Assembly (NCBI GenBank): GCA_031253795.1
Contig: JAIRVR010000031.1
Location: 62,001 to 126,000, forward strand
Direction: 5' to 3'
From: Burkholderiaceae bacterium
GTDB taxonomy: Bacteria; Pseudomonadota; Gammaproteobacteria; Burkholderiales; Burkholderiaceae_C
DNA: 64,000 bases
Under the pieces are notes generated by a model. The model worked only from the letters and a program-made list of their open reading frames with translations. It made no database searches and had not been told where the DNA came from. Position 1 is the stretch's first letter. Every line of letters begins with the position of its first letter. Position numbers and translations under genes: made by a program. Of the stretch, positions 10,527-59,272 are shown piece by piece.

Positions 10527-10568
10527 GTCTGTCTCCTTTGTAGTGGTGATTTCTGTGAGGGTCGGCGC

Positions 10569-39025: not shown

Positions 39026-40012
39026 TCACCCCTTCACGCACACCACCTGCTTGAGCGTGTGCACCACTTCCACCAGATCCCGCTGTGCGTCCATGACCGC
39101 GTCGATGTCCTTGTAGGCCATGGGAATTTCGTCCACCACGTTGGCGTCCTTGCGGCATTCCACGCCCTCGGTGGCCTGGATATGGTCCTGCACGCTGAAC
39201 AGCTTCTTGGCCTGGGTGCGGCTCATCACGCGGCCCGCGCCGTGGCTGCAGCTCTCGAAGCTTTCCGGGTTACCCAGGCCGCGCACGATGTAGCTGCGCG
39301 CGCCCATGCTGCCCGGGATGATCCCCAGCTCGCCGCGCCGCGCGCTCACCGCGCCCTTGCGGGTGACGAACACGTCCTCGCCGAAATGGCGCTCGCGCTG
39401 CACATAGTTGTGGTGGCAGTTCACTGCCTCCACATGCGACTCGAAGGGCCTGGCGATGACCTTGCGCACCGTGGCGATGAGGTGGGCCATCATCACCTCG
39501 CGGTTGCGCATGGCGAATTTCTGTGCCCAGGACACGCCGCGCACATAGTCGCCAAAGTAGCGGGCGCCTTCCTCGAAATAGGCCAGATCCTTGTCGGGCA
39601 GGTTGCGCTGATGCAGCTCGGCGTCCTTCTTGGCCAGCTCGATGAAGTGCGTGCCTATGGCGTTGCCCACGCCCCGCGAACCCGAGTGCAGCATGAACCA
39701 GACGAAGCCCGCTTCATCCAGGCAGATCTCTATGAAATGGTTGCCGCTGCCCAGGGTGCCCAGGTGCTTGCGGTTGTTGGTGCCGGCCAGGCGCGGATGC
39801 AGCTCGCACAGCCGGTTGAACTCGTCGGCCAGTGTGGCCCAGACCTGGTCCACCGACACGGGCGGGTTCTCCCAACTGCCGGGATCGCGTCCCCGGTGGC
39901 GGGGCACGGAACCATGGGGCACGGCCTGTTCTATGGCAGAGCGCAGCGGGCCCAGATTGTCGGGCAGGTCCTCGGCGCGCAGCGTGGTCTTGGCCGCCAT
40001 CATTCCGCAGCC
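39026..40012 (-). pseudogene. rtcB: RtcB RNA ligase, 3' fragment (C-terminal ~327 aa), separated from its 5' part by the mobile element
   Basis: GCGMMAAKTTLRAEDLPDNLG...AGTNNRKHLGTLGSGNHFIEICLDE...SHGAGRVMSRTQAKKLF; upstream ends at the element junction. Confidence 0.93.
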
Positions 40013-40139
40013 GTTCTTACTACAAGGTAACTGTTACTTCAAGGCTTCACTCTCAGCCTGCTCTTGGATGAGCAGGTAACAGTCCCGTAAGCCAACCACC
40101 GTGGAGCGCACCGCTGTTACCGGAAAGAGAGCAGGTTTC

Positions 40140-41261
40140 TCAACGTTCTTCGCCTGGTGCCTGATCTGGAGATGGACCGTCAGCTGTGCCGGCCACCAGG
40201 TGAAGGGCGTGCGTCGGATGAGACCGCGTTTGTAGCCGATAGAAATGGAACAGGCCTTCTGGCATTGGCAGCCCTTGCTCATAGTCCTGCCAACGCCTGG
40301 TTGGCAGGCATACTCGCCGCGCCGCTGTGGCCGGTGTATCTCCTGCTGCCTCGCGCGCTGCAACAATGGCTTCAACTTTCGGCTCGTTATGAGCGCGACG
40401 AGCCCATAGTCGAGGAGCACTGTCGTTCTTCCTGACGAGTTCCATGCGTACATCATCCCAGTCCAGGAAGACGAGGACATCAGTGTCTTTGTCGCCATCG
40501 CGCCTTGCCACAAGTGCGAGGGCCGAATCGGCACCTGCATTTTTGTACTCAGCAATTGCGCCTTCTATCGTTGAGCGAGCCAGCAAAACATGGTCTGCGA
40601 CCAGCTTTCTCAGTCTCAGATGAGCCGCTCCAAGCTCCTCCATGCTTCGCCTTGCGCAACGGCGAACGTCGATCTTCTCGGGTTGCTCGTTCAAGACTCT
40701 CGCGTTGAATCCTTTGTCGGCGCTTAGGTGCCGCTTGTGGGCCGTGAATCGAACCGACTCCACCCAATTGTTGCCATCTCCTCTCATGTCGTCGTCAGAT
40801 TCGAAACCATGTACAGCACTTGCTCTGTGCTGGACATGATTGCGGAGACTGCACATGAAGCGGTAGTCCGAACAGCGTTCGAACGCTTGGGTGAGTTCAT
40901 CTCGGGCCGCTGTACAGAAGTTGAGCTCCAACTTCAAACACTTGAAGTCCTGAACAACTTGGTCGGCATAGCCCTTCATTGTCGTCAGCAGGTTCACTAG
41001 GTGACGGTTGGCTTGCTCAATGTTGTGTGCCACGTCTCGATACTCAAATGTGAACTCCAGCTTGGAACGTAAGCCAATCTCTGTGAGAGCCATCTCCATG
41101 CTAATGAAATTACCTAGCAGAAGCTCGTATCGCTGTTCAAAATCTATCGCATCCAGAAGCACCTCGCGCGCATGTGCAAGAGCGATGTAGCGCGCCTCCG
41201 AGATCGGCAGCTTGAGATGTGGGTTGATGACAGCTTGCTCTAGGGTGTATTGCATATTCAT
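40140..41261 (-). CDS. hypothetical protein with putative C-terminal XRE-like HTH
   Basis: 373 aa; C-terminal AAGDTPATAARRVCLPTRRWQDYEQGLPMPEGLFHFYRLQT looks HTH-like; no other family recognised. Confidence 0.6.
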   Translation of the reverse strand: MNMQYTLEQAVINPHLKLPISEARYIALAHAREVLLDAIDFEQRYELLLGNFISMEMALTEIGLRSKLEFTFEYRDVAHNIEQANRHLVNLLTTMKGYADQVVQDFKCLKLELNFCTAARDELTQAFERCSDYRFMCSLRNHVQHRASAVHGFESDDDMRGDGNNWVESVRFTAHKRHLSADKGFNARVLNEQPEKIDVRRCARRSMEELGAAHLRLRKLVADHVLLARSTIEGAIAEYKNAGADSALALVARRDGDKDTDVLVFLDWDDVRMELVRKNDSAPRLWARRAHNEPKVEAIVAAREAAGDTPATAARRVCLPTRRWQDYEQGLPMPEGLFHFYRLQTRSHPTHALHLVAGTADGPSPDQAPGEER

Positions 41262-41563
41262 GGCCGTCCCGCTCCTGCCCGCTTAAGGTGCTTCATTAAC
41301 TTCTCCCGAAGAAAAATTGCAGCATAAGTGCCGCTTGTGGGCCATGAATACGGGGCCAAGATCACCTGAGTAGGTACAGCACTGCGCAGAACACTCATAC
41401 AGGTCTACCCGCCAGGGACTGGTTCTCGTGCGCGCGCTCTCCAGCAACGGTTTGATGATTCTCGAATTTTTCGCGGCTGATGTCGCTCGGGTAGCTTTTT
41501 CTCACCCGCCGGGCTTCTCACACGCGGAGGACGCTTTGAACACGTTCTTAGTGGAGGCATACC

Positions 41564-41992
41564 ATGGAAAAACGTTGGTGCAGTGCATGCGGGGAAGCGT
41601 TCGAGCCGCGGCCCCAAGCTCCTCGCCAGTCATACTGCGCAAAGGCCGAGTGCCAGCAGTCGCGCAAACGCTTGTGGCAAAGAACGAAGCGCAAGACGGA
41701 CCATGACTACCACGAGAACCAGGCGCAAGCGCAGTCGAACTGGCGTGGCGACCACCCAGACTACTGGCGTCGCTACCGCGAATCCCATCCGGACTACGCC
41801 GCCGACAATCGACAGCAACAACGACGGCGCAACGCGAAGCGAACGTCCCGTCAGCGCGAGAAGGCGATTGCAAACAGCGACGCGTCCTCGGGCACTCTGC
41901 CGGTCCAAGGCACCTTTCGGCTCATTGCAATCGATCCTGTCACTTGGGCAGGACGGCATGAATGGCTCGTCCAGATCACCTCGGTGTCTTGA
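41564..41992 (+). CDS. small Cys-containing (Zn-ribbon-like) hypothetical protein
   Basis: MEKRWCSACGEAFEPRPQAPRQSYCAKAECQQSRKRLWQRTKR; C-x2-C ... C-x4-C pattern. Confidence 0.6.
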   Translation: MEKRWCSACGEAFEPRPQAPRQSYCAKAECQQSRKRLWQRTKRKTDHDYHENQAQAQSNWRGDHPDYWRRYRESHPDYAADNRQQQRRRNAKRTSRQREKAIANSDASSGTLPVQGTFRLIAIDPVTWAGRHEWLVQITSVS

Positions 41993-42147
41993 ATCTATTC
42001 GCCGACGCGTGATTGCAAAGAGAGGACTTCATCGCCAACAGAAGATGGCGCTGGTAGTGTGGTGTCGCCGTTGCTGACCAGGGAGATGTTTCCAGGTAGC
42101 CGATGACCTCGTGGCCCTGCGCCACGAGCCTGTTGAGGAGCTGCACT

Positions 42148-43710
42148 ATGGAAAAGGGCGAACAGTCATTGCCGCAGAACGGGCAACCCACCTTCCGCGC
42201 CGCCGAGTACGTGCGGATGTCGACCGAGCACCAGCAATACTCCACGCACAACCAAGTCGCGCGCATTCGGGAGTACGCCCAGCAACGCGGCATCGAGGTG
42301 GTGAAGACCTATGCCGATGAAGGCAAGAGTGGGCTCCGGATTGCCGGACGGCTCGCATTGCAGCAGCTCATCGAAGACGTGGAATCGGGCTCCGTCGATT
42401 TCTCCATGGTGCTCGTCTACGACGTCAGCCGTTGGGGGCGCTTCCAGGATGCCGATGAGAGCGCGTACTACGAGTACCGATGCAAGCGCGCCGGCATCCA
42501 GGTGGTCTACTGCGCGGAGCAGTTCGAGAACGATGGCTCTCCCATCTCAACCATCGTCAAGGGCGTGAAGCGAACGATGGCCGGCGAGTACAGCCGGGAG
42601 TTGTCAACGAAGGTGTTTGCGGGTCAATGCCGGCTGGTCGAGCTGGGTTACCGGCAAGGCGGGCCGGCCGGCTTCGGATTGCGCCGGCTGTTGGTCGACC
42701 AGACTGGCGCGCGCAAGGCGGAGCTGGCACGCGGCGAACACAAGAGCTTGCAGACCGACCGGGTGGTGTTGGTACCTGGACCACAGGACGAGGTGCAGGT
42801 GGTCCAGAGCATCTACCGCTGGTTCGTTAACGACGGCTTGTCGGAGACGGAAATCGCTTCTCGGCTGAACTGCTCGGCCATCCGCACCGATCTGGGCCGC
42901 GAATGGAACAGGGCGACCGTCCACGAGGTGCTCATCAACGAAAAGTACATCGGCAGCAACGTCTACAACCGGGTGTCCTTCAAGCTGCGCAAGCTGAGGG
43001 TAGTCAATCCTTCGGACATGTGGATTCGCAAGGAGGACGCGTTCCCTGCCATCGTGGCGAAGGAGGAGTTCTATACGGCGCAGGGCATCATCCGCGCGCG
43101 CTCGCGTCGCTATTCCGACGAGGAACTGATCGAGAGGCTGCGCAGCCTCTATCAGCACCGCCAGGCGCTCTCTGGTCTCATCATCAACTCGACCGAGGGC
43201 ATGCCATCTTCTTCGGTCTACGCCCACCGTTTCGGGAGTCTGGTACGGGCTTACCAACTCGTCGGCTTTGTTCCATCGCGCGACTTCCAGTACGTCGAAA
43301 TCAACCGGGTGCTGCGCCGCATGCATCCCGCCATCGTCCTGCAGACCGAGGAGAAGATGGTGGCGCTGGGCGGTCGTGTGCGGCGCGATCCTCTCACCGA
43401 CCTTCTGTACGTCAACGAGGAGTTCAGCGTCTCCATCGTTCTGGCGCGTTGCCGACGCCGCGAGTCCGGGCAGTTGTTCTGGAAGATGCGGTTCGACACG
43501 GGTTTGGCGCCTGACCTCACGGTGGCGGTGCGCCTTGATCTTGCCAACCAGTCCGCGCTTGACTATTACCTGTGGCCACGTCTGGACTTTGGCAATCCCC
43601 GGATCAGTTTGGGAGAGCGCAATCCGGTGGAACTGGAGAACTACCGGTTCGACAACCTGGACTACTTCTATGGCATGGCGGCACGGACCCGGTTGCGGAG
43701 AGCGGCATGA
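42148..43710 (+). CDS. large serine recombinase (resolvase/recombinase family)
   Basis: EYVRMSTEHQQYSTHNQVARIREYAQQRGI...VYDVSRWGRFQDADE...GSPISTIVKGVKRTMAGEYSRELS; intact catalytic Ser region. Confidence 0.92.
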   Translation: MEKGEQSLPQNGQPTFRAAEYVRMSTEHQQYSTHNQVARIREYAQQRGIEVVKTYADEGKSGLRIAGRLALQQLIEDVESGSVDFSMVLVYDVSRWGRFQDADESAYYEYRCKRAGIQVVYCAEQFENDGSPISTIVKGVKRTMAGEYSRELSTKVFAGQCRLVELGYRQGGPAGFGLRRLLVDQTGARKAELARGEHKSLQTDRVVLVPGPQDEVQVVQSIYRWFVNDGLSETEIASRLNCSAIRTDLGREWNRATVHEVLINEKYIGSNVYNRVSFKLRKLRVVNPSDMWIRKEDAFPAIVAKEEFYTAQGIIRARSRRYSDEELIERLRSLYQHRQALSGLIINSTEGMPSSSVYAHRFGSLVRAYQLVGFVPSRDFQYVEINRVLRRMHPAIVLQTEEKMVALGGRVRRDPLTDLLYVNEEFSVSIVLARCRRRESGQLFWKMRFDTGLAPDLTVAVRLDLANQSALDYYLWPRLDFGNPRISLGERNPVELENYRFDNLDYFYGMAARTRLRRAA

Positions 43711-44609
43711 CCGAGCCGCTTTCTCTGCCCGAACTGCGCATGATCCCGATGGACCGCATCGAGGTCCTCAACCCGCGCGAGCGCAACCAGCGCAAGTTCA
43801 GCGCCATTGTGGAAAACATCGGAGCGGTTGGCCTGAAAAAGCCTGTCACGGTCACGCCGCGGCCAGGTGAGGACGGCGCTGAGCGTTACATGCTGGTGTG
43901 CGGAGAAGGGCGGTTCAAGGCGTTCCAGCAGTTGGGAGAAAAGCGCATTCCAGCGCTTGTGGTCATGGTCTCGGACGAGGACGCGTTCGTCATGAGCCTT
44001 GCGGAGAACGTCGCACGGCGGCGGCACCAACCGCTGGAACTACTGCGCGGCATCTCGCTGTTGCGTGACAGAGGCCACTCGGTCCAGGACATCTCACGCA
44101 AGACCAACCTGCATGAGACTTACATTCGCCACATTCTCGAATTGGTCGACAAGGGTGAGGAACGACTGCTAGTCGCTGTTGAGCGCGGGAAGATGCCAAT
44201 CACCGTGGCCATTCTCATCGTTGGTGCGGGCAACGACGACAAGACGGTGCAGATGGCGATGCAGGACGCGTATGAGTCCGGTGACCTGCGTGGCCCGCAG
44301 CTCATGTACGCCAAGAAGCTGGTGGAGAGACGCCAGTTCCTTGGACGCTCTATCTCACGTGCCCCGCCCCGGAAAGTTGTTGATGTGACATCCCTAAGCC
44401 TAGTCCGAGCTTACAAAACGGAAGTCGAGCGCCAGCGAATCATGATCCGTAAGTCCTCACTCGTTCAGCAACGCCTCTTCTTTGTCTACGGCGCATTGCG
44501 AAAGATGCTCAGCGACGAGAACCTGGTCAACATCCTGCGCTTGGAGGGGCTAGACACCTTGCCTAAGTACCTCGCCGAACGCGTTTCCCATGGCGGAGGT
44601 CCTCTATGA
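43707..44609 (+). CDS. ParB/RepB-like partition protein 1
   Basis: MIPMDRIEVLNPRERNQRKFSAIVENIGAVGLKKPVTVTPR...YMLVCGEGRFKAFQQLGEKRIPALVV...SLAENVARRRHQPLE. Confidence 0.88.
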   Translation: MTEPLSLPELRMIPMDRIEVLNPRERNQRKFSAIVENIGAVGLKKPVTVTPRPGEDGAERYMLVCGEGRFKAFQQLGEKRIPALVVMVSDEDAFVMSLAENVARRRHQPLELLRGISLLRDRGHSVQDISRKTNLHETYIRHILELVDKGEERLLVAVERGKMPITVAILIVGAGNDDKTVQMAMQDAYESGDLRGPQLMYAKKLVERRQFLGRSISRAPPRKVVDVTSLSLVRAYKTEVERQRIMIRKSSLVQQRLFFVYGALRKMLSDENLVNILRLEGLDTLPKYLAERVSHGGGPL

Positions 44610-45487
44610 AATCTACGACCCTTGGCTTTCTTCCCAAGCCGCTCATGATCGAGGTTGGCCGCATCTTGCCGTCAGTCAAGCTGGAGCAACGGATCACAGC
44701 GACGCACAAGTTCCGGCAGATCAAGGAATCCATCGCCGAAATCGGGCTCATCGAGCCCCTTGTGGTCACGGCTGTCGACCGCAAGACCTCCCAGCATCTC
44801 ATCCTGGATGGGCATGTGCGCTTCATGGCCATGAAAGAGATGGAGCTTAAGGAGATTCCTTGCTTGGTATCGACCGACGACGAATCTTTCACGTACAACA
44901 ACCAGCTCAACCGCTTGTCGACTATTCAGGAGCACATCATGATCCGCCGCGCGATGGACCGTGGCATCTCCGCAGCGAAGCTGGCCAAGGGCCTGTGCGT
45001 CGATGTGAGCTTGCTGCAAAAGAAGCGCAGTCTGCTCAACGGAATCTGCGACGAAGTCGTCAAGATTTTGAAAGACCACCAGTTCTCGACAGAAGTCACC
45101 GCGGTGTTGCGGCGCATGAAGCACACTCGCCAAGTCGAATGCGCCGAGTTGATGGTAGCAGCCAACACCGTGACCGTCAGCTACGCCCGCGCAATGCTCG
45201 CGGCGACACCAGAAGAGATGCTGGTCGGCGGCAAGAGGACGGGGCGCAGTGCGGCGATGTCGCAGGAACAGGTCGCGCGGATGGAAAACGAGATGACCAA
45301 TCTGCTGGGGCAGTACAAGCTGGCAGAGCAATCGCACAGCGAGGACATGCTGAACTTGATGATCGCCCGCGGTTACATCGTCAAGCTCGTCGACAACGCG
45401 CAGGTGCTGCGGTACATGCAGACCCACTTCGCAGAGGTTCTAGAAGAGTTCGCCAAGATCGTGGAGATGACGACCGTCGAGACATGA
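44606..45487 (+). CDS. ParB/RepB-like partition protein 2 (RepB C-terminal type)
   Basis: TATHKFRQIKESIAEIGLIEPLVVTAVDRKTSQHLILDGHVRFMAMKEMELKEIPCLVSTDDE. Confidence 0.85.
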   Translation: MKSTTLGFLPKPLMIEVGRILPSVKLEQRITATHKFRQIKESIAEIGLIEPLVVTAVDRKTSQHLILDGHVRFMAMKEMELKEIPCLVSTDDESFTYNNQLNRLSTIQEHIMIRRAMDRGISAAKLAKGLCVDVSLLQKKRSLLNGICDEVVKILKDHQFSTEVTAVLRRMKHTRQVECAELMVAANTVTVSYARAMLAATPEEMLVGGKRTGRSAAMSQEQVARMENEMTNLLGQYKLAEQSHSEDMLNLMIARGYIVKLVDNAQVLRYMQTHFAEVLEEFAKIVEMTTVET

Positions 45488-45760
45488 GCGCATTTCACTG
45501 CGATGAGAGCATAGAAGAACTCCCCTTCCGGCAAGGCTATGCACATAGCGCCTGGCTGTCGGCGGCAGAATGCCTGTGGCCGCCCTGGAGCTCACGGCTC
45601 CAAGCGGTCTACTGAACTCCCTAAAGGACTGGGCAGCTCGCTCTTGTCTTGCGGACAATCTGCTCGATGACGTCACGACGGCGCCACTTACGGCTGTCTC
45701 TTCTGTTCAAGACAAAAGACGCCAAAGTTAGGATTTGGCAGCCCCTCTATAACGGCGCAC

Positions 45761-45890
45761 TCATACCCTCAGCCGCGTCTCGTGCACATCCAGGTCGTGC
45801 GCAGCTTGCGCCACTGCAACCCCACGCTCGGTCACCGAGCTTGACCGCTTCAACCTTGAATTCCCGGCTGAACTGCCGTCTCGGTCCCAT
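45761..45890 (-). pseudogene. IS3-family OrfA N-terminal remnant
   Basis: MGPRRQFSREFKVEAVKL then +1 frameshift to VTERGVAVAQAAHDLDVHETRLRV then TGA where TGG (W) is expected. Confidence 0.75.
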
Positions 45891-45955
45891 AAACCACCTC
45901 CAGTTTCATCGTCCACCTTAACAAGGTGTCTTTTGAACCGGCAGCAGCCCAGGCC

Positions 45956-46519
45956 TCAGTGACCTGGGGCGTTGGCTGTGTCGCTTCCTTTCAGCTTTGC
46001 TACCAGCGCGACAGCCCGCTCAAGCTTCGCTTGCAACTCAGCCTGAACACGTGGGTTGGACAGCCCTGTCTCTCCACCGCAGGCCACCAGATTGTCGAGC
46101 GCCCATTCTGGCCAGTCCTCAATGTCATCATCCAGCGCGAGCCACGCCTGCGGCTGCCGGCGAATAACGTCGGCGCACACCTGCTGTCCTCGTGACATTG
46201 CCTTGAAAGCAGATTTTGCCCAGGGGTCCGCGCCGTGCACACGCTTGTGGTATGTGCCGCCGATGAATCGCTCGCGCAGCTCAGGAGGAAAACGCTTCAA
46301 CGTCTTGCCATACCCCGGCCACATGCACCAGGTGCTGCTGAGCACAAGTCCGACTTGCGGAAACGGCGCCAGCGCCTCTTCCAGGACAGGAATCCATTCG
46401 AACAACGTTCGATCTGGCCCCGCGTCGGGAGACATGTAGACGCCACGTCTGGCTCGCCACATAACGGCATGGTGTTGAACGACGCCATCTAGATCGAGGT
46501 AAAGAACTACTTCACCCAC
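45956..46519 (-). CDS. HAD-like domain protein
   Basis: VVLYLDLDGVVQHHAV...LVLSSTWCMWPGYGKTLKRFP...WLALDDDIEDWPEWALDNLVAC. Confidence 0.78.
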   Translation of the reverse strand: MGEVVLYLDLDGVVQHHAVMWRARRGVYMSPDAGPDRTLFEWIPVLEEALAPFPQVGLVLSSTWCMWPGYGKTLKRFPPELRERFIGGTYHKRVHGADPWAKSAFKAMSRGQQVCADVIRRQPQAWLALDDDIEDWPEWALDNLVACGGETGLSNPRVQAELQAKLERAVALVAKLKGSDTANAPGH

Positions 46520-46964
46520 CCTCGGCGTCTCCTCGGTTTTCGTTAGAACAGGTGACCGCTTTTTTTTGCTCCCAGCGGTAGATAACGGCCTTCATCGCGG
46601 CCTCAGCGTAGCTGCCGCCGACCACGATGGCGTCATCGACTTGGCACTGCACTAAATCACCCACCACACGGAACTCCGCATTCAAGCTCTGCGCCATCGC
46701 GAGCGCATCCTCTGCTGCGTGAACTTCAAAGGAGACGTTCTGCGCTATACGAACATCGCCGTACAAGGCTACGTGGCGTTCATCTGCGAGGTCTTCGAGC
46801 AGTAGAACAAAGCCTTCTTCTGTGCCGAGCAGCGCGTAGCCTGCGGCACGTGAGAAGCGGTAGGCCGTCTGAGCGTCGCACTGGCGCTCTCGGATGGTGT
46901 CAGACAACATCATTTGCATTTTTTGTGCAGGCTTGCCACGGACCCACAGATGTAAGAATGGCAA
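46512..46964 (-). CDS. hypothetical protein, coupled to HAD-like gene
   Basis: 150-aa ORF overlapping the HAD gene by 8 nt. Confidence 0.5.
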   Translation of the reverse strand: MPFLHLWVRGKPAQKMQMMLSDTIRERQCDAQTAYRFSRAAGYALLGTEEGFVLLLEDLADERHVALYGDVRIAQNVSFEVHAAEDALAMAQSLNAEFRVVGDLVQCQVDDAIVVGGSYAEAAMKAVIYRWEQKKAVTCSNENRGDAEGG

Positions 46965-46979
46965 GTAGTCGAATATAGA

Positions 46980-46998
46980 ATAGTCAATTTTGGACTAT
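46980..46998. promoter_or_regulatory. inverted repeat, candidate XRE operator
   Basis: ATAGTC-aattttg-GACTAT between the divergent XRE gene and the 150-aa gene. Confidence 0.5.
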
Positions 46999-47039
46999 AC
47001 GAAGTTGGACTGCAAGCTTTCGATGTTTTTGAAGCATCG

Positions 47040-47300
47040 ATGGACAAGTCAATTTACTCAACGGAGTACACACTCTTCTTGGCGCTCTTGCGTGGAGCGC
47101 GAGAGGAGGTTGGTGTGTCCCAGACGAAGCTTGCCGAGGCCCTGGGGGTGACTCAGACGTTCATCAGCAAATGTGAACGTGGGGAACGACGCCTAGACGT
47201 GGTGGAGCTCCACAAGTGGTGCCGGTGTCTTGGGCTTGAGCTCGACCAGTTTGCTGCACAGCTGGTCAAGGCCTACGTTCAGCTGCCAGCTACTGCCTGA
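47040..47300 (+). CDS. XRE family HTH regulator
   Basis: LLRGAREEVGVSQTKLAEALGVTQTFISKCERGERRLDVVELHKWCRCLGL. Confidence 0.9.
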   Translation: MDKSIYSTEYTLFLALLRGAREEVGVSQTKLAEALGVTQTFISKCERGERRLDVVELHKWCRCLGLELDQFAAQLVKAYVQLPATA

Positions 47301-47451
47301 TTGATGCTTTCGGGTCGAGTGGAGGCGTCCTGTACAGACGCCAGGGCCGTTACGCAAAGCCAAGCGTCTTCCTCGATACCTGCCGAGCAGAGTTTCACGA
47401 ATGCCGCCTCCGACCGAGAGCTCACGTGTCCGGTACGAGCCTAGCTCGATG

Positions 47452-49524
47452 CTAGGCAGTCAAAGGCTGAATAACCTTGCCATCCCACTGGATCAGTTTG
47501 AAATCGAGTCCCGTCGTCGCTTCTTTGAAGACTGACTCATTTTCATCGAAAGATGCTGCAACAATAGACTGAAGACTAGGCTGCTGAATTAACAACTGAA
47601 GCAGCGAGCGCTGGCTTGCAGATCGCATTGAGTGTTGACCAGGCTCATCCATGAGCAAAATGCCTGGGTGATGACCCTCGAATCCACGCGTAGCCGACGT
47701 CTGATACAACGCCAAAAGGTAGCTCCAGATCAGGCGAACAAAATCGCTCGCACTTGAGTCAGCAGTAAGGTTAGTCTGAGTTCTTGTGCGGTCTTCACGA
47801 CTACTTTGAATCTCGCGAAGCTCCAAATCAAAAAGGATAGGCGTCAGGGTATCGAGGCTTATGCGTACATTTGAGATTTCGGCACTCTCGTAACCAAATG
47901 AACTAGCATTGGCTCTAAAGTTCTTTTCAAAGAGCGAAATCCTTTCAAAATCATCCGCGTTATATGCCTCTTTTGGCAAGGACCGCCTAGAAACCTGGTT
48001 CGCTGCTAACCGGTCAGAAATCGCTTTCAGTTTTATTTTCAAGGCCGATGCTTGTTCTTCGAGCGCCTGTAGGTTGGACAGCTCCAACTCAATTTGAATC
48101 TGCCGCCGAACAATAGCACGCGACTCAGAAACACCCGCACTCACATCTCCACGCAACGAATTTCGATAATCATGAGACGCTGCCAAGCGATCTGCTATAC
48201 CAATCACAGTAATCTCAGACTGATGAATCTCCTCAACTGCTCCATTTATTTGACTCTGCAGCATCTTGCGCTGACTGTTCAGATAATCAATGTTTGTTTC
48301 AAGGTCCATTTGCGGCCCAGTAACAATTCCAAGCAACAGAGTGTCGTCGACTGCTTGATGACAGGTCGGGCAGTGGTCTGTAGCCACTTCAAGGTCCATT
48401 TGAGCACCAAGGCTACGAAGCTTTTGCGCCGTTTTATTGCGTTCGACATCTTCATTGGCTGCAGCCAAAAGTAGGCGTAACTCATCCAGGGCTGCCTTCT
48501 GCAGCGTCAGGTTTGTTGTTGCTCGCTCATGCAGCACACTAAGCCGTTGCAACTCAGCTGATGTCGCCTCGAGCTCCTGCAGTGCCTCCGCGCCAGACGC
48601 CTTGCCGTAGGCATCAGCTTTCTCCCCCAGACGTTGGTGTTCATCTCGAAGTTTACTTAACTGTTCTTGCAGGGAGATTTTCTTGTTCCCATCAGGCTTA
48701 ACGAGTAGAACCGCCGTCACATCGAAGGTTGATACCGGAGTTGGCGACAGTCCATCAATGACAATATTATTCGCTGTGGCGGCTTGACGAAATATATCGT
48801 AAATTTTTCGCCAATCCGAGTCAATCGCCACAGAGGCCGCATCCAACTCAGCACGCTTGGCCTGCCTTTCGAAAACACCCAATCCAAGTAGGAATTCAGT
48901 GACTCGTATCCGTGCATCACGAATTCCAAAAAATGGAATATTGGCAATGTAGTCCGTCCACCCACGCTTCTGCTCCACCGCAAGAGCGGCAAAGATTGTT
49001 TGCAAGTACAGCTTGGCCAGCCCTCCATTTGTCGTGGGAACTTGAGGTAGCTGATAGCCCATGAAACCTTCTAGAAACTGGAAATAACCTTCCTGCTTCT
49101 GCGCGCTGCCCGGATCAAAAAGATAAGTTGGCAGTGGTGTACCAAGCTCAATACCTTGAGTAAGGTGAGCCCCCTCGAAAATTTCAACAAGCTTGTCCTG
49201 GCGTACTGAATCACGGACTGCTCGACGCAGCGTCACGCTGCGCCCCGATGAATTTTCCAGTTCGACAAAGACTTCTGAGCGATCTACGTTGACACGGCTT
49301 CCGCCTTGCACGAAATAGTCTTTGACCGCATAGTTCAGAACTTTTTCGCCCTTCCCCCCAATCAGCTCCTCCATTCCTAAGCCGAAAATAAGGGTGTTGT
49401 AGAGCGTACTCTTGCCACTAGAGTTGCTGCCCCTAATAACAGTTAGATTGCGACTAAATTCGAATTCAAATCCGTACTCACCTTGCGCAGTTGAAATTCT
49501 TAGCTTAACGGCTCTGATCTTCAT
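47452..49524 (-). CDS. Rad50/SMC-like ABC ATPase with zinc-hook motif (ABC-3C-type ATPase)
   Basis: Walker A VIRGSNSSGKST, Walker B HPGILLMDEPGQHSM, central DHCPTCHQ CxxC hook flanked by long helical regions. Confidence 0.85.
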   Translation of the reverse strand: MKIRAVKLRISTAQGEYGFEFEFSRNLTVIRGSNSSGKSTLYNTLIFGLGMEELIGGKGEKVLNYAVKDYFVQGGSRVNVDRSEVFVELENSSGRSVTLRRAVRDSVRQDKLVEIFEGAHLTQGIELGTPLPTYLFDPGSAQKQEGYFQFLEGFMGYQLPQVPTTNGGLAKLYLQTIFAALAVEQKRGWTDYIANIPFFGIRDARIRVTEFLLGLGVFERQAKRAELDAASVAIDSDWRKIYDIFRQAATANNIVIDGLSPTPVSTFDVTAVLLVKPDGNKKISLQEQLSKLRDEHQRLGEKADAYGKASGAEALQELEATSAELQRLSVLHERATTNLTLQKAALDELRLLLAAANEDVERNKTAQKLRSLGAQMDLEVATDHCPTCHQAVDDTLLLGIVTGPQMDLETNIDYLNSQRKMLQSQINGAVEEIHQSEITVIGIADRLAASHDYRNSLRGDVSAGVSESRAIVRRQIQIELELSNLQALEEQASALKIKLKAISDRLAANQVSRRSLPKEAYNADDFERISLFEKNFRANASSFGYESAEISNVRISLDTLTPILFDLELREIQSSREDRTRTQTNLTADSSASDFVRLIWSYLLALYQTSATRGFEGHHPGILLMDEPGQHSMRSASQRSLLQLLIQQPSLQSIVAASFDENESVFKEATTGLDFKLIQWDGKVIQPLTA

Positions 49525-49994
49525 GCCGACTCCCATCCCTTTGCGACCGTTTTGACCATGTCTTCGGTAATTCCTTTGCCGATTTGTGCCAAAAGCGTAC
49601 GCTCCGGGGCAAAGGCGCCAGCTTCCCTGAGGACCTCCGTGATGAAGGTTCGGCCTTTTTCGGCTAGTTGGTATCCAGTCGATGTAGGCTCAATCAAATC
49701 CTCAGCTACCGCGAACCGAATAGCGATTGCAAGCGCAGGGTCGAATCCCCAAGCTGTAATGTTGAGTGCCTTAGCCTTCGTTGCATCAACCAGCTTCTGC
49801 ATTCGCTCTGCGCTTTTCATGGCCCAGTTAAATAGATGCAGGCGGGGCAGAGTAGACTTTCCACCCCGGGAAGACATGTCCAAGACCAAGAGCAATTGGG
49901 TGATCTTGTAGAGTGGTCTGTGCTCAACAAGCACTGGCGACGGCCGCCGGACGAAACGTAGACGCCGAGGTGACGAAATAACCGTTTCAGTCAT
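49521..49994 (-). CDS. small middle-component-like protein of ABC-three-component system
   Basis: MTETVISSPRRLRFVRRPSPVLVEHRPLYKITQLLLVLDMSSRGGKSTLPRLHLFNWAMKSAERM...; overlaps both neighbours (8 nt upstream, ATGA downstream). Confidence 0.65.
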   Translation of the reverse strand: MTETVISSPRRLRFVRRPSPVLVEHRPLYKITQLLLVLDMSSRGGKSTLPRLHLFNWAMKSAERMQKLVDATKAKALNITAWGFDPALAIAIRFAVAEDLIEPTSTGYQLAEKGRTFITEVLREAGAFAPERTLLAQIGKGITEDMVKTVAKGWESA

Positions 49995-50970
49995 AGTCGA
50001 CCTCGCAAACGGCAATCCATCTTGCAACGATCAACCGCGCGATTTGCGAAGCACCGGTCTCGTCGATAGCTGGGGCGAGGTCTTTAACGATTCGCTCAGT
50101 AAGACCAACACGAATCTTCTCTGTCAGCTCCTGAGGCGTTCCCTCCCACGTAACACAGGTTTCTCCGATGTCGGCTTCGTATCCATTGATGAGTCGTGCG
50201 AGCCGAGAATGCACTGTAGGTGCTGTATCGTTTATTCGCTTTAAGTGAAGACCGTGGTCAAGAAACTCCCTTAGCGTGCTTGCGTATAAGCGATTTACTT
50301 TTGCCTCTAGCTTGTCGGCAGAGACGTGAGCCAGTCGTGCGCGCGTTTTGCGCATAACGTTCTTCTCGTAAACCTCCGCGCTATCAGTCAAAACAGGCAA
50401 GACTGCAGGCAGGCCACCAAAATCGAGTGCCCGCCCGACGGCCTGCTGTATCTCCTGAATCTCAGTCGCATAGTGGTCAGCATCGTGCACCAGAATCTGA
50501 AAGTCGGCATCCAGGATGGAAAGATTCCACCCTCGAACTTCACCCTCCTTAGTTTGGGCATGCTTTATGAGGTCGTTATGCGCGATGGTGGGCGTCACCA
50601 AGTGCCACCGCCGCAGCTTGGTTGACCCCAAAATTTTCAGCAAATCAGCTTGATTGCTCTGGAGCTTGTTCAGGTCCGAGGTGATCTTGTTCCGTTGCTT
50701 TTCGTAGAGCTCTCTCGTCGAGTAAGCCTTCTCGGGGCAATAGCATTGGTACCCACAGCCCGTAGTCTTCGTGAAGCCTTCGAGGCCGTAGTCGCCGGGA
50801 GTCGCCGGAATATGGAGGTATCCGTCGACTGTGAACTTGCGCTTGAAGACCAATTGGCAAAGCCGTTCCCAACTGTTCCCGTCGAATGGACCGTATGCAG
50901 TCTGGTACACAGTATCGATCAGCCGCGACGCGACGCGGAACAGCCAACAGCCACTGCTTTTGAGCAAAGC
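49987..50970 (-). CDS. putative effector/nuclease-like component of the ABC-three-component system; start codon uncertain
   Basis: GNSWERLCQLVFKRKFTVDGYLHIPATPGDYGLEGFTKTTGCGYQCYCPEKAYSTRELYEKQRNKITSDL resembles a PD-(D/E)XK/Mrr-like arrangement; the ORF extends to 51291 but the upstream part looks non-coding. Confidence 0.6.
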   Translation of the reverse strand, partial: ALLKSSGCWLFRVASRLIDTVYQTAYGPFDGNSWERLCQLVFKRKFTVDGYLHIPATPGDYGLEGFTKTTGCGYQCYCPEKAYSTRELYEKQRNKITSDLNKLQSNQADLLKILGSTKLRRWHLVTPTIAHNDLIKHAQTKEGEVRGWNLSILDADFQILVHDADHYATEIQEIQQAVGRALDFGGLPAVLPVLTDSAEVYEKNVMRKTRARLAHVSADKLEAKVNRLYASTLREFLDHGLHLKRINDTAPTVHSRLARLINGYEADIGETCVTWEGTPQELTEKIRVGLTERIVKDLAPAIDETGASQIARLIVARWIAVCEVDYD

Positions 50971-51483
50971 AATGCAAGTGCGGTGTAGTGAACGTGATGT
51001 GTAGTGCTTTGCCCTGTGCGCAAGCGGCTCTCCCTGATCGCTACCGCTGCGGATGCAGCACAAACTTACCCCGCGGTGCTTGGTTTGTGCACATTGTTCG
51101 ATACAAATGGTTGCTTGTAAAGCAAGTTTGCGAAATTGCTGAACGAAGTTGGGGAAGCCAATGTGCGGCGCAAGGGGGCGCTGTGTACAGTTGCATGAGT
51201 TGGCCATGCAACACTGTACATAATTACAGCCACATGTGCACGACCCATACGCGCTTTGTGGCATCCATGGCACTCGAAAGTAGCGGATCACCTTTGCTTA
51301 TCTGGCCTCCCCCGTAGGCGCCTGCCATACAGTGCTTGTCGAGGCCACGAGAGGGCGAGGAGGTGTGGCTATGCCGTCATGAGGCTCTTGTCTGACTGTT
51401 GGATCATCAGTGCTTTTTTGGATAGGTGGCTTGGTACGGAGGCGCCACATGAATGTCGGATTTCCGACTCAAGAGGCGAATTT

Positions 51484-51933
51484 TCACAAACGCGGCAGCT
51501 TGCTGGTCTGCGAACGATGATGCGGTTTAATGGTTGTTACGCCGGACTCCCGCAGGGAGACTTGCTGCTGCAAGCTGGCCACCAAGAGTAAAAGCCGAGC
51601 GTTCTCACTAGCAAGCCCTCGGTTCTCCTGTTTGAGCGCTGCAAGCTCCTCCCTCAGTTCACTTTTCTGAACTTCGGCCTTCTCTGCCGCTACCCGTTGC
51701 TTCTCCAACAATTGCTGCGGGCTCCGACCACCAGCCTTACGGATCTCATCGGCGATGTCAGCATATTTGTTATGGATCAACGCGTGGCTGACCCCGGCCT
51801 CGCGAGCAACGGCACTGATAGAAGGGCCAACTTTCTGGCCCGCCCGTTCGGCATCACGCTTGAGCTTTGCAAACGCAAACATCAACCGTTTTCTGGTCGG
51901 AATCTCGCTAGCCACCAGAGGCCTCCCTCTCAT
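51484..51933 (-). CDS. TnpC-like coiled-coil protein of Tn554-type module
   Basis: MRGRPLVASEIPTRKRLMFAFAKLKRDAERAGQKVGPSISAVAREAGVSHALIHNKY...KSELREELAALKQENRGLASENARLLLLVASLQQQ. Confidence 0.75.
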   Translation of the reverse strand: MRGRPLVASEIPTRKRLMFAFAKLKRDAERAGQKVGPSISAVAREAGVSHALIHNKYADIADEIRKAGGRSPQQLLEKQRVAAEKAEVQKSELREELAALKQENRGLASENARLLLLVASLQQQVSLRESGVTTIKPHHRSQTSKLPRL

Positions 51934-53791
51934 CTTTTGTCAACCGTGTGAGGATGGCATCGGCAGCGAGGAGCCCAGCCTTCGCCTTCGCTCGCCCACC
52001 TGGTCCAATGTCATCGAGTTCGAGCAACTCCTCATGGTCACGACGAAGATGTTGCCAAACCTCCGTGAATGTGTTGTCGATGACTCCATTGCCGCAATCT
52101 CCACAGCTTGGCGCTTCGAAAAGCCCTCTGCCACCGCAGTCCTGTGCCTCAGCAAGGCACCAGCTATGCCCGGTGCTACGGATATTTATCCCATCACAAA
52201 TGCTCTCAACAAACTCGCGCCGAGACTTGAATAGCATCGGCTGATGGTTTTTTCCTGCATATGCCTTTATGCGATTGCCAAAACCACCGGCCAAAGGAGT
52301 TGAGTCCTCCAACCAGTGATCTATCAATGATGAATCGAAATAGGTATTTTCTTCCTCAATGAGTTCGTAAAGATCGCGGTCAGTCTCGGTAAGCTCCGCG
52401 TACCACTGGGTCAGTAGCAAACTGCTATGTTTGAAGTGCTGCTGCAACGTTGCTAGGTCAATACGCGGCCCCTTGTTCAAATGCACCGCTATCACGGCAT
52501 ACGTTCTACGAAACCGATGCGTTGCAAGCGGGGAGCCAAATCTGAGCCCCATCCGTTCACCGAAGGCTTTGAGCTGCTTGTTGTGCGACTTTGTGTCAGT
52601 CGAGACCACACCACGCGAAGAGTCGCTCAAAAACAGACGGTTGGCATTTCGCTCAAGCTCCAGCACTGATACCGCTAGGCGTGCTCTAGCCGCATCGGTG
52701 TCTGCGTGTGCAAGCAGTTCTCGCGTCTCGGAAAGCTCTTTGGCGATGCGAAGCCGCAAGGGTGCAGAGTGCCATTCAAGTGCATCCACAGCCTCCTTTG
52801 CAATCGCTGGAGCTAGCCAGCGCATAGGGCCATCACCGATTTTGCGAGTTGCGGATTTCAACCACCAGTACGTTTCCCCATCGACCTTCTGGGAGTAGAC
52901 GCACCCCACGTTGGTTTCGCCTAGTTCATGGACGCGGCACCCTGTCGTCAGGGCTAGAACAACGTACGCTGCAGTGCGGATGTCGCTAACAGCAGACTCG
53001 AATTGGTGGACGTCTCGAAAGCCGGCCGCCCAGATCACATGGCGCTTAACGCTCTCACCCCACTTCTTGCGATCCACATCACTCTTTGCTTCAGCCCACC
53101 GTTCTGCGAGGTCATCGCGCAAGCGAAGCAACTCAGCAGCTCTCGCGAGGTGCGCTCGGGCTGAGACAAACAGGCTTGAAGCTTCAGCAAGTGGTAGGAG
53201 TTCCGTACGACGCTCCTTGCCGGCCTCGGGCTCCCACAGGGGACCGACCTGATCAAAACTTAGCTCCCTGACGGCCTCTTCTGTGAAACTGTCCACCAAC
53301 ACTGCTCGCAGCTCGTACACCTTGCGAAGTACGGAAATGTGATGAGCCAAGGTTCGATCATGAACCCCACTATCACGAAGCTTTTGTAGATAGTTTCGGA
53401 GGTCAAACGCCCGGACGTCGGCGAAACGCCTGATGTCAATTGAATCGCACCACTTCGCGAAGGCGTTCAGGACAACATGCCGCTTGGGGACGGTTGCTGG
53501 GTCCAGTTGCTGGCCACCAGGGGCTGCCTTGAACGTAAAAGCTGCCGCAGCGCTCCGCATCGAAGGTCTCCAGTCCTCAGGAGTCTTCTTCCACACAATC
53601 TCCTTGTCCTGCTTGCCTCTAGCAGCATGAGGGAAGAATGGCGTGTAGTCCCAATTTTCATCCCCATAACAAGAAAGTGGAATTTCTCGTCCATCGGCCA
53701 TCTTCACGTACGAAATGACGAGTTTGTCTCGATCCTCCGATGTCAAGAGCTCCGGCGATGAGTGCGCTTGGTAGGATTTAGCGACACTCAT
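51908..53791 (-). CDS. tyrosine recombinase, TnpB-like
   Basis: LALTTGCRVHELGE ... LATHRFRRTYAVIAV ... LQQHFKHSSLLLTQWYAEL. Confidence 0.85.
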   Translation of the reverse strand: MSVAKSYQAHSSPELLTSEDRDKLVISYVKMADGREIPLSCYGDENWDYTPFFPHAARGKQDKEIVWKKTPEDWRPSMRSAAAAFTFKAAPGGQQLDPATVPKRHVVLNAFAKWCDSIDIRRFADVRAFDLRNYLQKLRDSGVHDRTLAHHISVLRKVYELRAVLVDSFTEEAVRELSFDQVGPLWEPEAGKERRTELLPLAEASSLFVSARAHLARAAELLRLRDDLAERWAEAKSDVDRKKWGESVKRHVIWAAGFRDVHQFESAVSDIRTAAYVVLALTTGCRVHELGETNVGCVYSQKVDGETYWWLKSATRKIGDGPMRWLAPAIAKEAVDALEWHSAPLRLRIAKELSETRELLAHADTDAARARLAVSVLELERNANRLFLSDSSRGVVSTDTKSHNKQLKAFGERMGLRFGSPLATHRFRRTYAVIAVHLNKGPRIDLATLQQHFKHSSLLLTQWYAELTETDRDLYELIEEENTYFDSSLIDHWLEDSTPLAGGFGNRIKAYAGKNHQPMLFKSRREFVESICDGINIRSTGHSWCLAEAQDCGGRGLFEAPSCGDCGNGVIDNTFTEVWQHLRRDHEELLELDDIGPGGRAKAKAGLLAADAILTRLTKDEREASGG

Positions 53792-55398
53792 TAAACAGAC
53801 CTCAACGCGGCCAAGACGCTGGGGGACCGCCAGATGGGGTGAGGGGCCTTTCGGGCACGCGCTTTCTCTCGCGCCACAATCTTCGGATCAAACTTGCTCG
53901 CGATGTCACGGTCTATCACCCTAGTGACCCACCTGAAAAGCGCTATCCACCTGTCATGACCAACGTGTGACTTCTGTGAAAACACGGCCCAGTAAAAGCT
54001 GAAGAGCTTGTAGAGGTCATCCTGAACGACGACCTGAGACTTACATCGGAAGCAAGACAAAAAATCCATGCACACGGAGCCATCCTTCGGCGCAAGTTCG
54101 CCGTTAAACACGTCTTTGCACCCGGAGTGAGGCGTGTTCTCCCTGATGACTGTGCCTGCAAGTGTCTCGACCAGCACCTCTCCTGCCATGCGATGCTCCT
54201 CGAGCATTTCAGGGGTAACACTCAAGTAGCGTTGAACTGTCCCGGGGGTGTTGGACCCGCTTCGTGCTGTTGCCAGCAGGTCGCCTCTAGATGCTCGCCA
54301 GACGCGATTGAGCTTCGTATTTCTAAACAATTGGCTACTCATCTTCAGACGGGAGCCGTCATCACGGACAAGTCCATGTCTTGCAGTGAACGCGTTGGCA
54401 ACGCCACTCAATGTCTGGGTGCTCATCCCGCGCACTGCCCCATCAAGCTCGTACACCCATAGGAGCCCTTCCAAAGAAGTCCCCGCGGCCAGTTTGGACG
54501 CGGCCTCAGAAAGAAGCAAAGCACGCTCGCAGAGCCTGTACACATCGAGCGAGACAACCTTTGATGCGGAAGGCTCTATCGGCGTGGGGATGTCCTTGTT
54601 TGCTCGACGCTTGAAGGTCACAAGTACCTTGCGATTCTTCCGAGGGTGGCTCAGAAAGCAAGTCTCTAAGTCCCTGGGCAGCTCAAGGAACGGTGTCGGA
54701 TTGAGGCCGGTTTTGAGCAATATGGCGAAGACGCACAGCCCAAGCTGCGTCACGACAAGACCGGGATGCGTCCCTTCAAAGACCTCGGCAACCTCCCTGA
54801 TGAGTGGGAGCAAGATTCGACTACGCTCTTCGTCTGAGAGAGGTTCGATGTAGTTCCGACGACGGAGGACGTTTGTGGCACCAGGAAACGGGTTCTTCTT
54901 GAAGAGGCCGTCGCCCGTTAGCAGCTTGCGCTCAACGAGCGCTTTCAATACTGTGCAGACCTTCTGGTAAGCAGTCCGAGCCGTATTTTTTGACCAGACT
55001 TCGCCGTTCGCCTTGACCCGAGTGCTCAACCATCCTGTGAACGCATCAATGACATCGCCATCGATCTTGCTAAGAGACATTGAAAAACCTGAGCTAGATC
55101 GCTCCACACAGAACCTGAACCAGCTGTTCAAACCAGACCTGACGATTGACTCAAGCGACAATGGTTCTGGCTTTCCTTGTGTAACCATCGCCCGCAGCAC
55201 CAAGGTTATCGCCCCAACTGTGTCGTCAAATCCCCGCCCGAGATATTCTGTGAAATCAGCCTCATAGACCCTCCCGTGTGGAAGTGGTATTGATACGCAA
55301 GTAGGTACGATCAGCGCTGACTTAGCTGCCACAGAGGGGATCGGAACAATCGGCTCGCTGGGGGAACCGCCTACCCTGAAATCTTTCTTTTTTGCCAT
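53791..55398 (-). CDS. tyrosine recombinase-like protein, middle gene, catalytically degraded
   Basis: LLKTGLNPTPFLEL (Arg-I position not Arg), MSSQLFRNTKLNRVW (degenerate HxLRHT), TPGTVQRYLSV (Tyr retained). Confidence 0.75.
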   Translation of the reverse strand: MAKKKDFRVGGSPSEPIVPIPSVAAKSALIVPTCVSIPLPHGRVYEADFTEYLGRGFDDTVGAITLVLRAMVTQGKPEPLSLESIVRSGLNSWFRFCVERSSSGFSMSLSKIDGDVIDAFTGWLSTRVKANGEVWSKNTARTAYQKVCTVLKALVERKLLTGDGLFKKNPFPGATNVLRRRNYIEPLSDEERSRILLPLIREVAEVFEGTHPGLVVTQLGLCVFAILLKTGLNPTPFLELPRDLETCFLSHPRKNRKVLVTFKRRANKDIPTPIEPSASKVVSLDVYRLCERALLLSEAASKLAAGTSLEGLLWVYELDGAVRGMSTQTLSGVANAFTARHGLVRDDGSRLKMSSQLFRNTKLNRVWRASRGDLLATARSGSNTPGTVQRYLSVTPEMLEEHRMAGEVLVETLAGTVIRENTPHSGCKDVFNGELAPKDGSVCMDFLSCFRCKSQVVVQDDLYKLFSFYWAVFSQKSHVGHDRWIALFRWVTRVIDRDIASKFDPKIVAREKARARKAPHPIWRSPSVLAALRSV

Positions 55399-55404
55399 CG
55401 TGGA

Positions 55405-56712
55405 CTATGCTCCCGCATCCAAGTAGCTCTTGGCTAGCGCATCGATTTCGGCCTGGTAACGGGTTCCATACACGTCATCGATTGCGTCCAGCAGATGTGT
55501 GTAACGCGATGTGGTAGTGATCGAGTCATGTCCCAACAGCCGCATAAGGGTCACGAGCGGTGACCCTCTGAACTTGCCGGCATGCTTCAGGTCTTCCAGG
55601 GAAGCCAACGTATGGGTCGCGAAGGTGTGCCTAAGCATGTGCGGATGAATGTGAAATCCAACCTTCGCTCCCAGACGGGCAAAAGGTGCTACGAATCCGT
55701 CATCAACAAAGGGCCGGCCACTGCGTGTCAAAAAAAGAGGCGCATGCTCTTCGCGTTTAGGTGCCCTAGCCAACAAGCGTGGTCTCACTACGGCCTTGTA
55801 CTGCCAGAGGGCGTTCATGCAGGCAACGGAGATTCGCACTGTTCGGGCCTTGTCATTCTTCGTCGACATGTATGCTGGGTCGAGCCGGACTGGCACCGTC
55901 CTAACTTTGGAAGACAGCTTGCTGCAATCAGAGACACATTTAACAGGGAACGTTGCCAGTTCCTCGGCTCTCAGCCCTGCAGTCAATCCAAGGTAAAACG
56001 CAGCATGGTGTGTCGGATTCCTCGCCTCCTTGAGCGCGCTGTCGATCTGGCCCCTTGTCAGAACCCGCTCTAGTCGCCGCGGCTCTCGCAGGTACAAGCT
56101 TGAAGTCGACCGTCGACCTTGGGTGCTCGACGCGTGAACCAGACGCGCATCAGCACTGGCCGAAATGGCTGCGTGTCGAGTGAAGGGAATCGTTGGGATT
56201 CGTCCAACCCGATGCGCCCATTCGTAGAAGCGCTCAACGGTTGCACGCTTGTGATTGATGTAACCCGGTTGGTTGCCAGCTACCACCTGGCACCACCTAA
56301 CCCAGTGCGAAAGCGGCGGCACATCGCCACTACCCGGTGCCGGAATATGGTCCCACTCAAAACGCTCTTCCAGGTACCCAAAGTAATCGTACATGTGCCG
56401 CCCGTAGGCCGCCCAAGTTTTCAGGTCCTTGGCGCCTGATCTACCAAGAAGCTCGTCAACAAAGAAGTGCAGCACCACTTCAACGATGGCGCCCGAAGAG
56501 TCGACGAGGATGGGGAAACCTTCGTAATGTTGACCTCCGACAGCGAACGAAGAATCACTGGGGTAAAGCGTCATGATCGCGTCCCAATCCAGAGCTTCAC
56601 GGCCGTGATGAAGCCGCGGCCACCGCACTGCGTCGCAAGGTCGTAGAAGTCTCCGCAGCCAGCGCGAGACCCGTTGTCGTAGTGCTTTTTCCTGTGAGTA
56701 AGCGATACACAT
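55405..56712 (-). CDS. tyrosine recombinase, TnpA-like
   Basis: LGLTAGLRAEELATF ... HIHPHMLRHTFATHTLASL ... LGHDSITTTSRYTHL; complete R-HxxR-H-Y. Confidence 0.92.
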   Translation of the reverse strand: MCIAYSQEKALRQRVSRWLRRLLRPCDAVRWPRLHHGREALDWDAIMTLYPSDSSFAVGGQHYEGFPILVDSSGAIVEVVLHFFVDELLGRSGAKDLKTWAAYGRHMYDYFGYLEERFEWDHIPAPGSGDVPPLSHWVRWCQVVAGNQPGYINHKRATVERFYEWAHRVGRIPTIPFTRHAAISASADARLVHASSTQGRRSTSSLYLREPRRLERVLTRGQIDSALKEARNPTHHAAFYLGLTAGLRAEELATFPVKCVSDCSKLSSKVRTVPVRLDPAYMSTKNDKARTVRISVACMNALWQYKAVVRPRLLARAPKREEHAPLFLTRSGRPFVDDGFVAPFARLGAKVGFHIHPHMLRHTFATHTLASLEDLKHAGKFRGSPLVTLMRLLGHDSITTTSRYTHLLDAIDDVYGTRYQAEIDALAKSYLDAGA

Positions 56713-56967
56713 GCTCCAAGCACTGCGTGGAACTCCATCGTTCGGTTTCTGGGTCTTTCAAGGTACGAATGCCCGGTTCCATTGAGGTAACCATCCAGTC
56801 GTTTGAAAGAAGGGAGAGGTGCACGGGACGGCGCGCACTCGCATCAGAACAGCGTCATCGAAGCGCCCTACCAGACCCCATCCCGAGGCGGGCCGCTCGC
56901 TCTAGAAGCCTCTTGGGCTGCTCATGCCGGATGCGATGGATAGGAGACTACAGGTGTTCAGGGGAGG

Positions 56968-57225
56968 TTACAAGTAGATGTCGGAAGAACAGCCTATGTC
57001 CACGCCCACGGCCGCCGGAATGATGGCCTTGATGGTCGGTATCACCGAGCCCACGGTGGCGCCTATGCCCAGGTGCACGTCGGGCATGGCGGCGACATGC
57101 TTGAACACCACGGGCAGCCGCGCGGCGTTTTCCAGCTGCCTGCGCGCCGCGTCCTCGACCGGCACGCCCCGGGTCCACATCTTGATGGGCACGCCGTTTT
57201 CCACGTTGTGTTGCAGGTAGTTCAT
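56968..57225 (-). pseudogene. rtcB: RtcB RNA ligase, 5' fragment (native to ~56989, then element sequence to a stop)
   Basis: MNYLQHNVENGVPIKMWTRGVPVEDAARRQLENAARLPVVFKHVAAMPDVHLGIGATVGSVIPTIKAIIPAAVGVDIGC|SSDIYL*. Confidence 0.94.
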
Positions 57226-59203: not shown

Positions 59204-59272
59204 GAATGGGCAGGAGTCGAACCTGCGACAGCCCTCTTGCGAGGGAGCTCTACCAGACTGAGCTACCAGTGG
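59204..59272 (-). ncRNA. degenerate tRNA-like RNA (D-arm, T-arm, anticodon loop replaced by GCAA tetraloop)
   Basis: TAGCTCAGTCTGGTAGAGC (D-arm), CCCTC-GCAA-GAGGG, GCAGG-TTCGACT-CCTGC (T-arm). Confidence 0.75.

Follow-up and report, generated by a model that had tools for sequence, protein, structure and literature searches.

Within a 64,000-nucleotide stretch of DNA from a Burkholderiaceae bacterium (hereafter the window), a gene for a serine recombinase (SR) is followed directly by two genes for ParB-like proteins, ParB-1 and ParB-2, and preceded by a gene for a small cysteine-containing protein. The grouping of SR, ParB-1, and ParB-2 is not a product of chance—the same gene order recurs at about 65 genome and plasmid loci, mostly with 4-nt overlaps between the genes and with near constant protein lengths of about 520, 298, and 298 aa. 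We tentatively read this unit, with somewhat less than even confidence, as a recombination module controlled by two dedicated ParB-like clamps, horizontally mobile and carried by defence islands.

All four genes lie on the plus strand of a draft genome in 77 contigs that is 59% complete. The module begins with a 142-aa Zn-finger-like protein (41564-41992) with a CxxC...CxxxxC N-terminus and YW/YR helical repeats, and continues with SR (42148-43710, 520 aa), ParB-1 (43707-44609, 300 aa), and ParB-2 (44606-45487, 293 aa). The start of SR is placed at 42148 by conservation; homologue lengths do not favour an in-frame ATG at 42103. Pfam assigns Resolvase (PF00239, 2.4e-23) and Recombinase (RD; PF07508, 6e-22) domains to SR, ParB_N (2.8e-11) and RepB (9e-14) to ParB-1, and the same two families to ParB-2 (6e-8 and 1.5e-39, respectively). 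One 4-nt ATGA overlap joins SR to ParB-1 and another joins ParB-1 to ParB-2. The sequence-only reading of this DNA had described the four genes and both overlaps, and all are present as it placed them; it had also deduced stoichiometric co-expression, of which translational coupling is implied by the overlaps, while stoichiometry is too strong a word.

ParB-2 was searched for in two genome samples, 399 from the phylum and 401 from the family, with matches in 26 and 37 genomes, respectively. A lack of joint conservation of the three genes had been set beforehand as the refuting outcome; the order and overlaps hold not only at the loci mentioned above but also in viral contigs, where 59 of 80 had room for all three genes and all 59 showed the same order. 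The distance matrices of SR, ParB-1, and ParB-2 correlate with one another (r 0.87-0.95). A search of the same genomes starting from SR found ParB-2 missing or truncated in four genomes with close SR relatives, and no ParBs with distant solo relatives; such exceptions indicate that the ParB pair is a feature of a single SR lineage, in which it may break down. The earlier remark that the module has no ParA holds in the window and well beyond it: a scan for KGGxGK[T/S] within 6 kb on either side found no ParA-type open reading frame (ORF) at any of 156 loci. This refutes the idea that ParA is a normal member lost here; the module is therefore neither a partition system that lost its ParA in this genome nor a ParABS system.

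By its sequence, SR is a serine recombinase of the large-serine-recombinase lineage without the usual C-terminal zinc-ribbon domain. The catalytic residues S25, R23, R95, and R98 are invariant across 48 sequences. The nearest solved relatives by both sequence and fold are the large serine integrases SprA and phiC31, which are also the best PDB neighbours of an AlphaFold model with a mean pLDDT of 80. A profile comparison with large serine integrases covers the catalytic and RD domains and nothing beyond, and the SprA match, which spans SR residues 214-321 (the RD domain), stops at residue 321. No zinc-ribbon Pfam match was found in SR, and no CxxC pair is conserved among its homologues; the C-terminal part has instead a weak HNH-associated helical repeat. 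Hence SR shares with SprA, phiC31 Int, and Bxb1 the catalytic and RD domains and the catalytic residues, but differs in its C-terminal part and in the undetected zinc ribbon. Since that ribbon was sought and not found, we do not place SR fully among the large serine integrases, although it would work like them. Integrases have one small recombination directionality factor, whereas SR has two ParB partners. The CcrA, CcrB, and CcrC recombinases of staphylococcal cassette chromosome (SCC) elements are likewise serine recombinases of mobile islands, and SR has partial similarity to their NCBIfam equivalogs; however, it scores 57.5, 26, and 21.9 bits against cut-offs of 900, 900, and 700, and the module lacks the ccr gene context. 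We know of no ParBs in SCC elements.

Matches of the two ParB proteins within the ParB family include Spo0J, Noc, and KorB. The alignment of ParB-1 to Spo0J spans both cytidine triphosphate (CTP) motifs, which are invariant (C65-G66-x-G68-R69 and E100-N101-xx-R104), and ParB-1 also matches KorB. ParB-2 retains D68-G69-(H)-x-R72 but has YN...R in place of ENxxR, and may for this reason bind nucleotide without hydrolysing it. ParB fold and CTP motifs, as expected of a ParABS protein, are thus both found in ParB-1 and in part in ParB-2. The pair has in common with ParB/RepB partition proteins and with KorB and Noc the ParB_N fold and the helix-turn-helix (HTH)/RepB region, and ParB-1 also the CTP motifs; it differs from them in lacking a ParA, in forming two tandem paralogues after a recombinase, in having one site per genome, and in the loss of ENxxR from ParB-2.

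The 142-aa upstream protein had been called Zn-ribbon-like, and in 25 homologues its four cysteines (C6, C9, C25, and C30) are indeed invariant. Its AlphaFold model (pLDDT 85) is confident over the N-terminal two thirds and resembles the zinc finger YacG in fold only very weakly (E 4.5). This gene type is restricted to the betaproteobacterial clade, and other small genes precede the module elsewhere. Its product is a probable small DNA-binding or regulatory partner of the module.

Between this gene and SR lies a 22-bp conserved cis site, TGCAAAGAGAGGACTTCATCGC (42014-42035, plus strand; clade consensus TGCAAAGAGAGGACTTGATCGA), a candidate operator or parS-like clamp-loading site. Its mean information over 29 loci is 1.43 bits per position, compared with 0.16-0.19 in the adjoining columns. 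At a constant spacing downstream is a -10-like hexamer, TAGTGT (42055-42060, plus strand), with the clade pattern TAnnnT at 0.78 bits per position; we take it as the putative promoter of the SR operon. The site has a partial dyad, AAG-N6-CTT, extended to TCAAG-N6-CTTGA at some loci; matching AAG/CTT pairs are present at 69-86% of loci, and matching outer pairs at 21%. It falls within the end of the Zn gene at some loci and 3' of the gene at others, which shows that DNA, and not protein, is being conserved. Each genome has a single copy, located at the module, except for one genome with an extra weak match and another with none. Conservation is strong in the betaproteobacterial (Zn-gene) clade, and the site is absent from clades without the Zn gene. 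A parS-like role for the site is possible, not secure.

The module moves as a block, since the same stretch is found in unrelated surroundings. A block at 41561-45497 (plus strand) has 85% nucleotide identity to three Acidovorax genomes with unrelated flanks. The Agrobacterium plasmids pAtC58 and pAt1D1460 have 3904 bp in common at 96.9% with different surroundings. A Rhizobium plasmid has 4.2 kb in common with an Aminobacter plasmid, at 92.6%, and their left flanks differ. In many module pairs, similarity ends at the start and stop codons or a few bp from them. Methylibium PM1 carries three copies, two of which belong to a duplication of >30 kb that its chromosome shares with a plasmid. The nested mobile unit proposed earlier thus stands as far as block movement goes; its self-mobility is conjectural, neither terminal repeats nor target sites having been found for the window copy.

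In the mechanism that we propose, ParB-1 would bind CTP and load at the one conserved site, which lies immediately before the SR promoter, then slide across the promoter and nearby DNA. ParB-2, with its degenerate nucleotide site, would pair with ParB-1 or lock it. The pair might repress or time the operon in the manner of KorB on plasmid RK2, a sliding clamp that depends on CTP and acts as a repressor on promoters as far as 1.5 kb away (PMC11790492), and might also help to assemble or direct the SR synapse, replacing the missing domain. SR would integrate or excise the module or the surrounding island, much as an integrase does with the help of accessory factors, with the small upstream protein as a putative clade-specific regulator, of the Zn-finger type in betaproteobacteria. 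A ParB-guided recombinase fits the anatomy of the module, namely its single conserved site and the CTP motifs of ParB-1; CTP loading at the cis site, regulation, synapsis control, and SR as the mover of the module are what we infer. A bolder proposal is that site-specific recombination of a new class is at work here: ParB-type sliding clamps, gated by CTP and loaded at one dedicated site, would replace the zinc-ribbon/coiled-coil control of a large serine recombinase and decide the timing and place of defence-island integration and excision—this we consider unlikely, if still worth stating.

Several results weigh against a ParB-controlled, self-moving module. Distant solo relatives of SR (40-43% identity) lack both ParBs, and some loci retain SR and ParB-1 with ParB-2 lost or truncated; the ParBs may therefore not be essential. 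Because the cis site is confined to clades with the Zn gene, the Zn protein, and not a ParB, may be what uses it, as an operator. Flanking direct repeats, sought at each locus, were in general not above shuffles, and for the window module neither an attL/attR pair nor an empty site could be identified. Recombination sites were thus not found, and mobility by the module's own recombinase is something we infer; homologous or tyrosine recombination, if it had transferred the block, would leave the same picture. Copies number at most three per genome—a low count, with no spread of the insertion-sequence kind.

ParB-type CTP clamps are known to act in partition, in nucleoid occlusion, and in the control of transcription over long range; large serine recombinases are known as integrases. 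In the full-text literature outside subscription papers and preprints, we found no paper that describes the module or couples ParB-type clamps to a recombinase, and a 2025 survey of the ParB-CTPase fold does not mention recombinases (PMC12704722). If the clamps do control SR, this would be a new mode of recombination control, and the module might serve as a new programmable integrase. The module is common in the sampled genomes and sits among defence genes, and its single conserved site and compact four-gene form make it directly testable.

The defence genes bear on one alternative: that the module is itself an anti-element (defence or exclusion) system, the ParB pair sensing or loading on invading DNA and SR rearranging or disabling the invader. 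In the window, a Lamassu-type operon (LmuA, LmuC, and LmuB; 47452-51291, minus strand; LmuB 4.6e-119, LmuA 8.9e-44, LmuC 3.4e-22) adjoins the module. Across loci, 101 module-neighbour ORFs match 164 PADLOC families, including SoFic, Gabija/GajB, AbiEii, Septu/PtuA, DRT, and PDC-S52, and Pfam adds McrBC, NgoMIV, and type III Res; control ORFs match three families, each by one of 29 (an RtcR regulator is among these 29), but the controls are few and come from two genomes and the neighbour set includes spurious ORFs, and hence we give no enrichment factor. These defence-rich neighbourhoods are compatible with the anti-element reading, yet any island-borne recombinase is expected near defence genes too. 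Cargo varies between loci, apart from a DUF3987-like gene that follows ParB-2 in one subclade (judged by eye). Moreover, PADLOC holds no specific defence-family match for SR, ParB-1, or the Zn protein, and for ParB-2 only weak ParB-region matches; the single cis site at the module argues for self-regulation. We regard an anti-element role as improbable.

A second alternative would have SR move the block as a nested transposon of minimal size, its ends lying at 41561 and 45497. The sharp block ends seen between the window and Acidovorax, and between the two pAt plasmids, speak for it, but ends at start and stop codons are also expected from selection on coding sequence alone. Shared terminal repeats were not found in the beta clade, and the low copy number is a further point against; we consider this quite improbable. 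Some candidate ends and attachment sites were tried and set aside. At an apparent Acidovorax empty site (L002:11701), the junction is a fusion that lies within other genes of the island and does not mark where a module ends. Attachment at tRNA genes was rejected, as these number only 11 in 156 loci. A prophage integrase role was rejected as well: among 58 viral contigs of 20 kb or more, 39 have the upstream side of the module close to a contig end, a position that probably reflects provirus trimming, given that the neighbours checked are gene-transfer-agent (GTA)/tail genes, Fic genes, a tRNA-Met, methyltransferases, and AAA ATPases.

Alternatively, the ParBs could hold or segregate an excised island circle while SR resolves multimers. 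Their RepB type and the many plasmid copies of the module agree with such a stability role; many copies are chromosomal, though, the ParA scan was negative throughout, and one site per genome is not a centromere array. We hold this to be very doubtful.

The last alternative concerns YCTTGANNGGAATCGAACC, a 19-bp site resembling a tRNA T-arm that stands between cassettes (Fic, AbiEii, PIN, a siderophore operon, and acnA) in Agrobacterium pAt plasmids. Four of these carry about 20, 20, 12, and 5 copies, with 1-3 of the reversed pattern; examples in pAtC58 (L010) are at NC_003064.2:40439, 44321, 292743, 294000, and 294868, and further loci listed for the array are L132, L133, L134, and L135-L156. 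Crossovers map within CTTGA. The array looks like an undescribed integron-like cassette array. The site brackets the module in two pAt plasmids, the only two in which the integron-like arrangement holds, and marks one border in two more Rhizobiales plasmids. That SR is the recombinase of this array is highly improbable: the abundance of sites, the crossover position, and the two bracketed modules favour it, but two of the plasmids rich in sites are missing from the ParB-2 matches, 0-2 sites occur in plasmids that carry other lineages of the module, and neither the window module nor the beta-clade modules have any. As an SR target, the array is striking locally but not tied to the module.

In the window, the module rides, together with the Lamassu operon, on a carrier element of about 17 kb (40007-56991, no strand assigned) inserted in rtcB, with GGCTGY at both junctions. 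The gene is split into an N-terminal part from 56986 upward and a C-terminal part from 40003 downward, the break lying in the region coding GCGMMA. The earlier claim that the element has its own tyrosine recombinases is supported near its right end, where Phage_integrase is matched by two ORFs, 51908-53791 and 55405-56712, and a SAM-like domain only weakly by the ORF in the middle (53791-55398). A DUF6262 protein adjoins this run; with the adjacent tyrosine-recombinase-like genes and the 6-bp GGCTGY, it recalls Tn554-like multi-tyrosine-recombinase elements. The likeness is the carrier's, with rtcB as target, and not the module's, which occurs elsewhere without this carrier. The carrier's TnpA-like protein was found in none of the other genomes among the 401 of the family; as the module, by contrast, was found in 37 of these genomes, it is not a fixed part of the carrier.

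Two cargo genes on the minus strand flank the module: one for a 373-aa protein with a weak HTH (VC1465-like; 40140-41261) and one for a HAD_SAK_2 protein of RNA-repair type (45956-46519). A 62% HAD_SAK homologue lies near the Acidovorax copy (L002:2356-2850). In the viral contigs L206 and L214 and at locus L122, a tRNA-Met is upstream of the SR-ParB-ParB module; L214 and L122 have a Fic-type or 418-aa gene in between, and L214 has a GTA-type tail gene after the module, a possible insertion spot beside gene-transfer-agent clusters. A Sphingobium plasmid module (L158) is bracketed by 77-bp direct repeats (81%; 2717-2792 and 8379-8455), and its next cassette by a second repeat family of about 95 bp (8432-8525 and 10559-10650); these are candidate module ends at most, and they do not recur in other clades. 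Finally, the start of rtcR (59207-59268, minus strand) gives an Rfam tRNA match of 31.8 bits that ARAGORN does not call, perhaps a tRNA-like RNA of the rtc operon.

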